Position numbers and translations under genes: made by a program | DNA from: a virus | Length of the DNA: 23,360 nucleotides | Strand: one strand, 5' to 3' | IMG/VR virus record: IMGVR_UViG_3300036945_000501 | Location: 1-23,360 of that record | The notes under the pieces: generated by a model | The model's input: only the letters and a program-made list of their open reading frames with translations | What the model was told of the DNA's origin: nothing | Databases searched by the model: none | Shown here: piece after piece, positions 8,981 to 22,965 of the stretch | Position numbering within the stretch: position 1 is the stretch's first letter | Layout of the letters: each line of letters starts with the position of its first letter

Positions 8981-9536
8981 TAGGAGGCGTCACTGTGCCA
9001 CCGCTCGTGGTCGTGCCGCTGCCCGTCGCCACAGTCGGATTGCCCGTGTTCTCAGACGTATATGGACCGTCCCGAAACACCGCCGTCGTGAGGTTGAACG
9101 TGTCTGTCGCCGTGCGCGAAAGCTTCCGCGTCTCATAGGATTCATGAAAAATATACATCACGTCCACGCTTTGCGTGAACCGCAGTTCCCGGAGCACCGC
9201 AAGCGGATACGGCGTCACCAGTTCCAGCGCCGCCGTGCCCGCCATGACCGCGCCGCGGTTCCGCCAGAACCGCACATACAGATCGCCGAACTCCAGCACA
9301 TAGCCGGCCGCCCGCGTCGGGATGAACGACACCAGCCGCACGCGCGAGGATTCCGTCTTCACCGCGCCGCAGAAATAGGAACCCGTCCTACGCTGCGCCC
9401 CGCCCTGCGGATGAATGACGACGTTCATCAACTCGCGCGCGCCGTTGGGATACCGCTCCAAATCGACGCGGCCGAACAGGCGCGGCGAGAACTCCCCTGC
9501 CGTAAAGTTGGTTTGAAGGTGGCGGCTCCGCGGCAT
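8862..9536 (-). CDS. Tail tubular protein B-like protein, N-terminal portion (split gene)
   Basis: A 224-aa product from the ATG at 9536, which forms a TAATG overlap with the stop of the tail tubular A gene; a GTG five codons upstream is less likely. The N-terminus is typical of nozzle proteins: 'RHLQTNFTAGEFSPRLFGRV', 'ERYPNGARELMNVVIHPQGG', 'YVLEFGDLYVRFWRNRG', 'TPYPLAVLRELRFTQSVDVM' and 'RDGPY'. After about residue 165 the protein turns into a Thr/Gly/Ser/Asp linker ending in an almost pure Gly/Asp tail before TGA. The family usually continues without interruption into the beta-rich part that here lies in the next frame. A run of five G (8872-8876) sits 8 nt before the stop codon, a plausible slippage point. 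Confidence 0.85.
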   Translation of the reverse strand: MPRSRHLQTNFTAGEFSPRLFGRVDLERYPNGARELMNVVIHPQGGAQRRTGSYFCGAVKTESSRVRLVSFIPTRAAGYVLEFGDLYVRFWRNRGAVMAGTAALELVTPYPLAVLRELRFTQSVDVMYIFHESYETRKLSRTATDTFNLTTAVFRDGPYTSENTGNPTVATGSGTTTSGGTVTPPTTGGTDDAGAGGTGGDSGGDSGGSSGDGDGGGDGGGGGE

Positions 9537-10690: not shown

Positions 10691-11578
10691 TCAGGCTTCG
10701 GAGCAGAGGATTTCACAGACCTTCTCCTCCTCCAGCCGCACGGCGCCGATGAACATCTGGAAGTAGCCATACCAGCTGAATCGCTTGTCGGCGCGGCGAT
10801 CGACTTCCGCCGTGATGTCCTTGCCGATGGCCAGGCCAATGCCCGTCTTCGCGAAGGCGAAGCACTTGCGATAGCCGGAGCCGTTGGTTCCGAGACGTTC
10901 CGTCCGGATGAACTCGAACCCCATGAAGGTATCAATGTCACCCTTCACGAGAGCCTTGACGGAAGCATAGTCCTCGCTCGTGGCCTCGGTCGTGGCCAGG
11001 AGGTTGGCGATCTGCTTCTGGGCGCACGCGAGATAGAGCTTCTCGCCCGGCTCCACCGCCTCGCCGGCCACCAAGGCGGAACGCGCCTCGATCAACTTGG
11101 AGATGGTCATGCCGGCGTTGCCGGTGCCGGTTCCGTAGGCCCACGAGTTGACCGCAACCGAGTTGGAATTGGTCGCCGTGGTGGTGCCCGTCTCGCCGGT
11201 CGTGGCAGTGCCGAGCGCCGCGGCGATGATGACATCATCCAGCGCGCGCCCCATGGCGTCGCCATGCGTGCGGATGTAGGCGCTGGTCGGATCGGCCAGC
11301 ATCTGCACCTTGTCGATGTTGTCGATGAGGTCGCCCGTCTCGTATCCGGCCAGCGACACCCAACGCCTATTGTGCGGGGTGTTGATGAGCGGACTGTCGC
11401 CGTTGCGATCCGTGATGGCCTGCGCCGCGACGGCGCCGACGTAATCGAAGGAGAAGGACTTGCCGACGCCGGTTTCGACGGTGACGGCGGATCGAAGCCG
11501 CGAGCCATGCTGCTGTGCGCGCAGCATGATGTTGCTGTTGTACTTCTGGACGAAGGCTTCCGTGATTTGGAATGACAC
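10691..11578 (-). CDS. Major capsid protein
   Basis: A 295-aa protein starting at the GTG at 11578 (product VSFQITEAF), preceded by GGAG at about 8 nt. The sequence has the features of podovirus-type capsid proteins: an N-terminal arm ('TEAFVQKYNSNIMLRAQQHG'), 'RRWVSLAGYETGDLIDNIDK', the helical 'RTHGDAMGRALDDVIIAAAL' (typical spine helix), and a C-terminal 'GKDITAEVDRRADKRFSWYG' beta block. The gene follows the scaffold gene, as expected for HK97-fold capsids. It has the only long leader (gap 11579-11833) in the late operon, which fits a need for high or separate expression. No 10A/10B-like frameshift extension is visible after the TGA. Confidence 0.88.
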   Translation of the reverse strand: MSFQITEAFVQKYNSNIMLRAQQHGSRLRSAVTVETGVGKSFSFDYVGAVAAQAITDRNGDSPLINTPHNRRWVSLAGYETGDLIDNIDKVQMLADPTSAYIRTHGDAMGRALDDVIIAAALGTATTGETGTTTATNSNSVAVNSWAYGTGTGNAGMTISKLIEARSALVAGEAVEPGEKLYLACAQKQIANLLATTEATSEDYASVKALVKGDIDTFMGFEFIRTERLGTNGSGYRKCFAFAKTGIGLAIGKDITAEVDRRADKRFSWYGYFQMFIGAVRLEEEKVCEILCSEA

Positions 11579-21076: not shown

Positions 21077-21585
21077 GCTGCGACCTGGGCGCGGAGTTGG
21101 GCGGCGCGGTATGCTGCGGCCATGTTGCCCTGTGCGGCGGCGGCGTCGTAGGCGGCGAGGAGGTGGTGCGGGGCGAGATAGGCCGGTCCGGCGCTGGGTC
21201 TGTCGCGCTCATGGCGATCGGCGATCTCGGCTTTGAGGGCGGCGACCTTGGCGCGGTTAGCCTCGATTTGCTCGGGGGTTGGGCGCTCGGGAGGGGCCGG
21301 TTCGGGAGGCGGCAGGGCGGCGGTTGCGGATCGCATGAAAGCCGCGTGGCGCTTGTCGGCTGTGAATATTTCGGCGATGTCGGCGACGGACGGCCAGAAC
21401 TGCCATGCGGCCATTGCGTCACGGCGGCGGGTTGGGGTGAGCCATTCGGCGTAGATGGCCAGGGCGTCGGCGCAAGCGGCTGCTCGGGCTGTGATTTCGC
21501 TGCGGTCGGGCGGGTTGCGGACGGAAGCGGCGATGGGTGCGAGGAACCGCAGCCAATCCTCGGTTGTGGCATATCGGCCGGTCAT
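21073..21585 (-). CDS. Hypothetical protein next to the replication gene
   Basis: A 170-aa protein from the ATG at 21585, overlapping the stop of the DUF1376 gene (ATGA). It is helical, with 'AWQFWPSVADIAEIFTADKR', a Pro/Glu-rich linker ('PPPEPAPPERPTPEQIEANR') and an Ala-rich C-terminus. The position after a replication initiator-like gene, and the short N-terminal helical domain with a long tail, would suit a helicase loader or accessory replication protein, but no AAA+ motif is present. Function unknown. Confidence 0.6.
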   Translation of the reverse strand: MTGRYATTEDWLRFLAPIAASVRNPPDRSEITARAAACADALAIYAEWLTPTRRRDAMAAWQFWPSVADIAEIFTADKRHAAFMRSATAALPPPEPAPPERPTPEQIEANRAKVAALKAEIADRHERDRPSAGPAYLAPHHLLAAYDAAAAQGNMAAAYRAAQLRAQVAA

Positions 21586-22346
21586 TGCAGGCTGTCCTTT
21601 CCGTTCAGGAAACCGTGCAGATAGTCAAGTTTTCCGGGCTTTTCCGGCGCCACGTCGCTGGGCTCATCGAGCCATCGGCCGGCGTTGAGCCACGTTGCGG
21701 GATGGGGGATGAAATTGCGATCCGTGGGCCATTGCGCGGCGTTGAGGCCGGCGGCGATTTCCTCGACGGATGCGCGTTTCATGGCCGATGTCCACGCTCG
21801 CCGGGCGGCGTGCTTGCCGACCTTGCGGGGGTATGCTGCCCAAAAGTCGTCAAAGCCGCAAGCGGATTTTGGCCTCGCCGCGACTAGCGGTGAGGGAGAC
21901 CCCGAAGGGGTCGGTTCTCTTTCTTTTTCTTCCTTCTGTGAAGGTGAAGGTGAAGGTGCATCACTTTGCGATGCGTTTGCCAATGGCTCCGCTATGCGTT
22001 TGCCATGCGTTTGCCATCGCTTTGCGGCCCCGATTGCGCCCGCCTTGCTACGCTCTTGCGTGATGGTTGCCGCCCTCGCCCGCTCGCGCTCAAGCCTCGG
22101 GTTACGGTAGCAGTCTCCGTCCAGATCGAAGAACGCCATCACCGCATCACGCGCGTCGCGCCATTCCTTCGGCGAGCACCGCGCCATGGCTGCCAGGCGC
22201 TTGTCATCTGCGGGTAGTGCTCCGTCCCGCGTCCAAGCCTGCATTAGCAGCAGCAAATATGCGCCGTGCTCAGTCGCCGTTAGGTGCCCCGTATCCTGGA
22301 GATAGTCGGCCACGTAGAGCGGCATCCATACGTCTGCGGAACTCAT
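21582..22346 (-). CDS. DUF1376-type phage replication protein
   Basis: A 254-aa protein from the ATG at 22346 (ATGA overlap). Residues 5-90 match the DUF1376/YdaU pattern: 'WMPLYVADYLQDTGHLTATE', 'HGAYLLLLMQAW', 'ALPADDKRLAAMA', with 'YRNPRLERERARA' closing the domain. A Ser/Pro/Glu-rich linker (about 128-160) leads to a conserved C-terminal 'FDDFWAAYPRKVGKHAARRA' and 'FIPHPATWLNAGRW' (165-225), typical of phage replication O-like proteins. Probable role: origin recognition or primosome assembly. The DNA for residues 108-129 carries a direct-repeat array, as iterons lie within lambda O. Confidence 0.8.
   Translation of the reverse strand: MSSADVWMPLYVADYLQDTGHLTATEHGAYLLLLMQAWTRDGALPADDKRLAAMARCSPKEWRDARDAVMAFFDLDGDCYRNPRLERERARAATITQERSKAGAIGAAKRWQTHGKRIAEPLANASQSDAPSPSPSQKEEKEREPTPSGSPSPLVAARPKSACGFDDFWAAYPRKVGKHAARRAWTSAMKRASVEEIAAGLNAAQWPTDRNFIPHPATWLNAGRWLDEPSDVAPEKPGKLDYLHGFLNGKDSLQ
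21911..21958. other. T-rich tract and GAAGGT repeats next to the iteron-like array (possible unwinding element)
   Basis: The plus strand has a nearly pure pyrimidine stretch (21914-21937), about 60 percent A+T over 28 bases in an otherwise GC-rich genome. It is followed by three tandem GAAGGT units (21940-21957). It encodes the Ser/Pro/Lys/Glu linker of the replication protein. The position directly beside the repeat array suggests a DNA-unwinding element. Confidence 0.45.
21960..22027. repeat. Direct repeats with 11-bp period inside the replication gene (candidate origin iterons)
   Basis: Three exact copies of ATGCGTTTGCCA lie at 21971-21982, 21994-22005 and 22005-22016, the last two sharing one base. 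Degenerate copies fill the array at 21960-21971, 21983-21994 and 22016-22027. Because the period is 11 bp, the copies are read in different codon frames (Trp-Gln-Thr, Gly-Lys-Arg, Ala-Asn-Ala), so protein selection does not explain the repetition. A T-rich tract and GAAGGT repeats follow at 21911-21958. Confidence 0.7.
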
Positions 22347-22543
22347 GCTGCGCGCCTCGTGCGGTAATAGGATTCAGCGATTGACACCTCGGCGGCGGCG
22401 CGCTCAAGCACTTGAGCCTCGACCGCCATCTGCAACAGGTCCGCGACAAGCGCGCGCTTGTGCGGCGCCGTCAGGCGTTGGCCGGTGCGCGTGATGTGGT
22501 CGAGCAGCGCGGCATTCGCGCGGAGCCGATCGCATAGGGTCAT
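22343..22543 (-). CDS. Small helical hypothetical protein
   Basis: A 66-aa protein. The ATG at 22543 overlaps the stop of the nuclease gene (ATGA); an in-frame ATG five codons upstream is less likely. The sequence 'TLCDRLRANAALLDHITRTG' and 'ALVADLLQMAVEAQVLERAA' predicts a helical bundle. Coupling to the nuclease upstream and the replication gene downstream suggests a replication or regulation role, but no domain is recognised. Confidence 0.6.
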   Translation of the reverse strand: MTLCDRLRANAALLDHITRTGQRLTAPHKRALVADLLQMAVEAQVLERAAAEVSIAESYYRTRRAA

Positions 22544-22965
22544 CGTGCGAAGCTCCACCCTTCGGATTCCAGCGCGCGGACTGCCTCATCCTGCGACCGC
22601 ACGACATGGACTGTCCATCCCTGTTTTGCCAGGCGGGCGTGCATCTCGATTTGCGCGGGCGATAGCCGGCCGATTGCCGACTTGACCTCGATCAGCGCGT
22701 GCTTGCCGTTGCGGTAGATCAGCAGGTCCGGCGCTCCGGCGGTCAGGCCGGTTGCCTTCATGTGGCGCCCGCCGATGACGGTGCGCTTGCCCTCGTTGGG
22801 AATGGACATGACCAGACAGCCGAGCCATTGGAGGCGCGCGCGTATGGCGATCTGTATCTGCGCCTCGGACAGCACCGGCTTGCGACTGCCGCGGGGCTTG
22901 GGGCGGCGCGGGGCGTCTTCGGCAAGGACCGCCTCAATCAGTAACGCGGATGCTGGGCCGGTCAT
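22540..22965 (-). CDS. VRR-NUC domain nuclease
   Basis: A 141-aa protein from the ATG at 22965. It shows the PD-(D/E)xK arrangement of VRR-NUC nucleases: 'MSIPNEGKR' (53-61), 'TAGAPDLLIY' with Asp80, 'ALIEVKSAIGRLSPAQIEMH' with Glu93, Lys95 and Gln105, and a C-terminal 'GWTVHVVRSQDEAVRAL'. Stand-alone phage VRR-NUC proteins are thought to act as Holliday-junction-type or other structure-specific nucleases in recombination and replication. It is the first gene of the leftward operon, 50 bp from the divergent gene. Confidence 0.88.
   Translation of the reverse strand: MTGPASALLIEAVLAEDAPRRPKPRGSRKPVLSEAQIQIAIRARLQWLGCLVMSIPNEGKRTVIGGRHMKATGLTAGAPDLLIYRNGKHALIEVKSAIGRLSPAQIEMHARLAKQGWTVHVVRSQDEAVRALESEGWSFAR

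Follow-up and report, generated by a model that had tools for sequence, protein, structure and literature searches.

Does a cluster of short direct repeats inside a phage gene mark the place where replication begins, and is it read there by the protein that the gene encodes? The question is raised by an array of repeats of about 11 bp that lies within a DUF1376-type gene in a stretch of viral DNA of 23,360 nucleotides, referred to here as the window. Our analysis indicates that this part of the window is very probably a phage replication origin situated inside its own initiator gene, in the manner of lambda ori and of the plasmid pSK41, and we infer that the initiator binds the array, that an adjacent segment melts and that replication starts here. 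The features on which this reading is based are collected in Table 1.

Table 1. Features in and beside the putative initiator gene of the window (L001 is the nearest relative of the initiator).
Feature	Position	Strand	Description
Putative replication initiator gene	21582..22346	minus	DUF1376 (PF07120), PHROG matches, AlphaFold2 model
Iteron array	21960..22026	minus	Six head-to-tail units of ~11 bp, gene-strand consensus GGCAAACGCAT; from TRF and exact 12-mers
Exact iteron TGGCAAACGCAT, copy 1	22005..22016	minus	
Exact iteron TGGCAAACGCAT, copy 2	21994..22005	minus	1-base overlap with copy 1
Exact iteron TGGCAAACGCAT, copy 3	21971..21982	minus	
Hexamer array, CACCTT x3.5	21938..21958	minus	Encodes SPSPSP; TRF period 6
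Polypurine tract AGAAGGAAGAAAAAGAAAGAGAA	21915..21937	minus	Locally A-rich; candidate unwinding element
Hairpin GACCCC-TTC-GGGGTC	21898..21912	minus	Stem in L001: GAAACC-TTC-GGTTTC
Second hairpin CCTCACCG..CGGCGAGG	21873..21895	minus	Perfect in L001
Next gene, 170 residues	21073..21585	minus	4-bp overlap (ATGA) with the initiator gene

The iteron array and its flanking elements

The array occupies positions 0.42-0.51 of the length of the initiator gene. Read in register on the gene strand, from 22026 down to 21960, its units are CGCAAAGCGAT, GGCAAACGCAT, GGCAAACGCAT, AGCGGAGCCAT, TGGCAAACGCAT and CGCAAAGTGAT, five of them 11 bp and one 12 bp in length, and the GGCAAACGCAT iterons are contiguous 11-bp direct repeats without dyad symmetry. 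TRF called the array at 21965-22017 with a period of 11, and the three exact 12-bp copies, which read ATGCGTTTGCCA on the plus strand, were found where a reading of the sequence alone (hereafter, the sequence-only reading) had placed them; no further copy of ATGCGTTTGCCA at 0 or 1 mismatch is present elsewhere in the window. Because the start spacings of the exact iterons are 23 and 11 bp, they fall in three different codon frames of the minus-strand gene, as that reading had also stated. A triple of exact 12-mers within 60 bp occurs once in the window; 100 dinucleotide shuffles produced none, and of 5000 codon shuffles of the initiator gene that preserved the protein, 3 contained one. Neither chance nor the peptide accounts for the array.

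Following the iterons along the gene are a hexamer array, a polypurine tract and two hairpins. The GAAGGT repeats that had been reported beside the iterons correspond in position to the hexamer array, which exceeds the expectation from codon shuffles. The T-rich tract reported next to them is also present, although its description as an A+T-rich segment holds only locally: it is a short purine tract of 23 bp with ~70% A+T inside a gene of 62% G+C, the 27 bp surrounding it are 89% purine, and A+T content in the window peaks elsewhere, near 9131. The tract resembles the high-AT region of lambda in its place and in the A-richness of its sense strand. We place little weight on the hairpins, because their folding energy is ordinary (z of -1.3 as DNA and -0.7 as RNA) and the homologues show a modest excess of hairpins (p 0.05 in 17 of 96 genes); set apart from this is the comparison with L001, in which the stem of the first hairpin is preserved via two double changes.

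In-frame hexamer arrays are found right after the iterons in about one-fifth of the homologues. The hexamers of the window and of L003, L010, L012, L017 and L094 are CACCTT, AACCAG, AGTCAG, ATACAG and AACAGG, and the repeated codon pair in the homologues' arrays is above the codon-shuffle expectation. Such arrays may represent a separate element of the origin.

It could be argued that the iterons form an incompatibility, copy-control or partition site and that the true origin is another sequence nearby. Plasmid iterons do double duty, and the window is a 23-kb genome fragment, with the rest of the genome unseen. Against this, the window contains no other array with helical spacing and three exact copies, and the layout, which includes a purine tract and a hairpin, matches a complete origin. 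We regard this alternative as very unlikely.

The putative initiator protein and its downstream neighbor

The putative initiator is a DUF1376 protein of 254 residues. Its assignment to this family from the sequence alone was upheld by a match to PF07120 at E 3.6e-23 (82.2 bits, relative to a curated Pfam cut-off of 30.1), and it matches PHROG 9327 (primosomal protein, E 6e-48) and PHROG 270 (replication initiation). DUF1376 was the only family returned by Pfam at E 0.01, with no match to the lambda O family or to RepA_N (PF06970) as a sequence profile. The AlphaFold2 model (mean pLDDT 78.5, mostly above 90 in the domains and below 50 in the linker) confidently predicts a winged-helix N-terminal domain, corresponding to DUF1376 (about residues 7-118), that ends in a long helix; residues 125-162 are predicted to form a disordered linker and residues 164-228 a small helical C-terminal domain. 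The iteron array codes for residues ~107-129, where the long helix ends and the linker begins, and the remainder of the linker is encoded by the hexamers, the purine tract and the hairpins.

A Foldseek search with the model gave zero matches at E 0.001. When structures were re-ranked with VIA-align, RepA_N-type initiator domains occupied ranks 1, 5, 7 and 9 (4pql, 5kbj with DNA, 4pt7 and 4pta) and the DnaD N-domain rank 22, with Z of only 5.1-6.5. The initiator N-domain may be akin to the RepA_N/DnaD fold, a kinship that is suggestive only because the structural matches fall below Z 8.

Many transcription regulators are also among the fold matches, and a winged-helix protein bound to phased repeats would look identical if the array were an operator, through which a phage regulator, be it the DUF1376 protein or a different one, controlled transcription or timing while replication started elsewhere. 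An intragenic site ~300 bp past the start codon would be an odd location for an operator, however, and its position in the linker is kept across many genes and matches that of lambda ori and of the pSK41 origin. In addition, the family is catalogued as primosomal or replication initiation. An operator therefore seems an unlikely function for the array, and we retain the interpretation of the locus as an origin.

The gene that overlaps the initiator gene downstream is present in L001, with ~80% identical DNA, and had no family match in Pfam, PHROGs or PDB sequences. In relatives, the neighboring genes are annotated as helicase loader, DnaC-like or replication protein P, and the window gene is a candidate new helicase loader by its position only.

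Constraint on the DNA of homologous genes

The sequence-only reading had proposed that the conserved object is the DNA and not the peptide, and this proposal held in several tests. Out-of-frame near-repeats were counted in the 240 bp before the C-domain of 96 dereplicated homologous genes and compared with 30 codon shuffles that kept each protein and its codon usage. The linkers contained 415 out-of-frame repeat events relative to 133 in the shuffles, and the repeat spacings peaked at 10/11 bp (94 observed, 14 shuffled) and at 22/23 bp (77 observed, 13 shuffled), giving 171 versus 27 for these spacings together. The excess was located mainly at -210 to -30 bp relative to the C-domain and was absent within the C-domain itself. 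While 43 of the 96 homologues were above all 30 shuffles, about half failed the strict repeat test.

An exact search of viral contigs with the doubled iteron GGCAAACGCATGGCAAACGCAT gave zero matches, so that no close relative carries the exact array of the window. For this reason, the comparison of synonymous sites proposed in the sequence-only reading was run in a sister clade, made up of 24 prophage genes that have one common array. Codons for the same residue, compared pairwise among these genes, were identical at a frequency of 0.94-0.95 within the repeats and of 0.41-0.69 outside them; the expectation from codon usage is 0.45-0.49. This result, the excess over codon shuffles, the reading of one word in three frames and the occurrence of a low-similarity N-domain and array beside a similar C-half all point to a constraint that acts on the DNA.

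These data also bear on the idea that the repeats arise incidentally, from the linker peptide or from slippage in a low-complexity linker that is tolerant of tandem duplications, in DNA that is unread by protein. Such an origin of the repeats would agree with the disorder predicted for the linker by AlphaFold2 and with the in-frame hexamers, which encode SPSPSP-type peptides. It would not account for iterons that are mutually out of frame, for a large excess over codon shuffles with peaks at helical-turn spacings, for synonymous sites that are frozen only in the repeats of the sister clade or for the recurrence of identical words in divergent genes, and we consider it extremely improbable.

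A test for clustering flagged lambda O, the positive control, at its known origin, and the earlier comparison of the window with lambda O/ori is sound as one of layout. The same test was positive (p 0.01-0.05) for phiAX1, the Rac gene ydaU and 683R6, and gave no detectable array for RHph_TM3_3_3, Azospirillum phage Cd, DB virus 2 and ppBeUSDA76-2. The array is not universal among DUF1376 homologues; in some of the negative genes an array may be present but too degenerate to be picked up, and others may have an origin elsewhere. The sequence-only reading had named relatives that keep the protein without the repeats as evidence against it, and here care is needed: L001 lacks the word of the window and possesses another 11-bp array, and some named DUF1376 genes are without a detectable one.

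Apparent exchange of the N-domain and iterons

L001 is 66% identical to the window initiator overall; the C-domains are 92% identical and the N-domains 62%. Their DNA is 83-87% identical in the upstream nuclease gene and ~80% identical in the first ~60 bp of the initiator gene; identity drops to 38-62% across the iterons and most of the N-domain and climbs to 90-97% within the hexamer array and beyond it, immediately after the iterons. At the position of the window array, L001 has a different, CCAAGCATGCC-like 11-bp array, which by comparison of the two sequences fits a change of specificity. L001 and L165 have in common a CAAGCATGC-type word and N-domains of the same family, joined to unrelated C-domains. 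The overall pattern is as if the N-domain and the iterons had been exchanged as one cassette.

Covariation of the whole N-domain with the iteron word was sought and did not come out cleanly: the window and L001, whose N-domains are 62% identical, have words that differ, and L001 and L165, whose N-domains are 52% identical, use words of one type. In addition, GCAAACGC is common to N-domains that are highly diverse.

Several related genes display other rearrangements. In the DUF1376 genes of rhizobial prophages (L168-L192), the N-domain and iterons are kept and are followed by at least four unrelated C-terminal domains, suggestive of repeated recombination right after the origin. L193 and L197 are DUF1376 genes without the linker that continue into HNH-nuclease-like sequence, possibly through insertion of a homing endonuclease in the initiator gene. 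In the window, a 71-residue ORF (22343-22558) lies between the VRR-NUC gene and the initiator gene; it is missing from L001, whose flanking nuclease gene is ~85% identical.

Iteron words in viral contigs

A DNA-only scan of 2.9 million viral contigs for GCAAACGC present twice at an 11-bp period yielded at least 120 loci, and 58 of the 120 listed were in ORFs similar to the homologue N-/C-domain set. Among the matches listed, the word was read in all three frames, at a median ORF position of 0.47, and Pfam assigned 41 of the 119 covering ORFs to DUF1376 and 20 to Lin1244_N (DUF4373), genes of the latter family bearing the identical word at the same period. Twelve of the 119 listed ORFs were head-tail connector genes, in which the word encodes an in-frame peptide, and these were rejected as initiators.

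At a 14-bp period, GCAAACGC was found at 29 loci over all 2.9 million contigs, none of them in the initiator family. The permuted word CGAACAGC at an 11-bp period was found at 47 loci, 13 of which were in the family and proved to be tandem arrays, e.g. of GCGAACAGCTA repeated. It was consequently rejected as a neutral control, being the iteron word of another branch, and its family arrays mean that other branches use other iteron words. In L303, L370, L373 and L392, the iteron word lies opposite to the coding strand of the initiator, and thus the orientation of the iterons relative to the gene is not fixed. L352 contains, at 11110-11418, a long array of CATAGCAAACGC-like units that no family ORF covers; these may be iterons located outside any initiator gene.

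A model for initiation

By analogy with lambda and pSK41, the DUF1376 winged-helix N-domain would read the 11-bp iterons, and the presence of one iteron per helical turn would place a number of protomers along the same DNA face. This nucleoprotein complex would strain the adjacent hexamer and polypurine segment and cause it to open. The C-domain, held on its disordered linker, might then recruit the helicase-loading machinery, supplied either by the host or by the product of the overlapping downstream gene. The N-domain and the iterons would constitute a single exchangeable specificity cassette, with the C-domain being swapped separately.

We lean slightly toward a more general proposal, according to which there is a broad class of phage initiators, having DUF1376, Lin1244_N or other N-domains and many kinds of C-domain, whose origin consists of lineage-specific iterons of 11-bp period in the linker DNA, whose N-domain and iterons behave as a cassette, and in which the hexamer array, read in frame, forms an origin element of its own, involved in unwinding or in entry of the loader. 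Both DUF1376 and Lin1244_N occur widely in phages, neither family has been given a function, and origins have been mapped in few phages. Should the rule hold, a single gene would reveal the origin, along with a candidate iteron word, in many genomes of phages and prophages, and the role of DUF1376 and Lin1244_N proteins as iteron-binding initiators would become testable. Recombination between N-domain/iteron cassettes and C-domains would also offer a model for changing replication specificity while the host-facing domain is kept.

Comparison with known systems

The DUF1376 and Lin1244_N phage proteins share the N-domain family of the window initiator. The Pfam entry describes DUF1376 as being of unknown function, and no origin described for DUF1376, DUF4373 (Lin1244_N) or YdaU was found in the literature searched. 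In the Rac prophage of E. coli, ydaU is a DUF1376 gene with phased TGTTCAAACA-like repeats in its linker (p 0.03); it is followed by ydaV, a putative ATP-binding gene, and the homologous gene of phage 683R6 is annotated as DnaC-like. The C-domain and the iteron word of Rac ydaU differ from those of the window. The Rac prophage has an active origin, oriJ (PMC3945230); no literature placing oriJ inside ydaU was found.

In lambda, the iterons lie in gene O, within the linker between the DNA-binding N-domain and the P-binding C-domain (PMC6022878). The window is like lambda ori in that its iterons are inside the initiator gene, in DNA that codes for an interdomain linker, and are followed by an A-rich segment and then a palindrome, and the 4-bp overlap of the initiator gene with the next gene is like that of O and P. 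In contrast to the four 18-bp dyad iterons of lambda, which are 20-24 bp apart, those of the window are 11 bp long, contiguous and without a dyad; a hexamer array separates them from the purine tract, which at 23 bp is weaker and shorter than the 39-bp tract of lambda, and the initiator is not in the lambda O family.

Origins inside initiator genes are known in principle from lambda and from plasmids of the RepA_N type; what appears to be undescribed in the literature searched is this protein family, the 11-bp form of the array and its breadth across phage initiators. In the RepA_N plasmid pSK41, the origin is central in rep, in DNA that encodes a dispensable linker, and the origin repeats are bound by a winged-helix N-domain (PMC5703833). 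Between the staphylococcal plasmids pPR9, a chimera, and pSK41, the N-domain and origin have been replaced while the C-domains are >97% identical (PMC5703833). The window differs from the RepA_N plasmids in the lack of a PF06970 match, its weak fold match (Z ~6), its phage context and its other C-domain family. Its array is likewise central in the initiator gene, at a position that is the same across the family, and the window and L001 exhibit the same pattern as pPR9 and pSK41; the pSK41 RepA_N plasmid may be the nearest described parallel.
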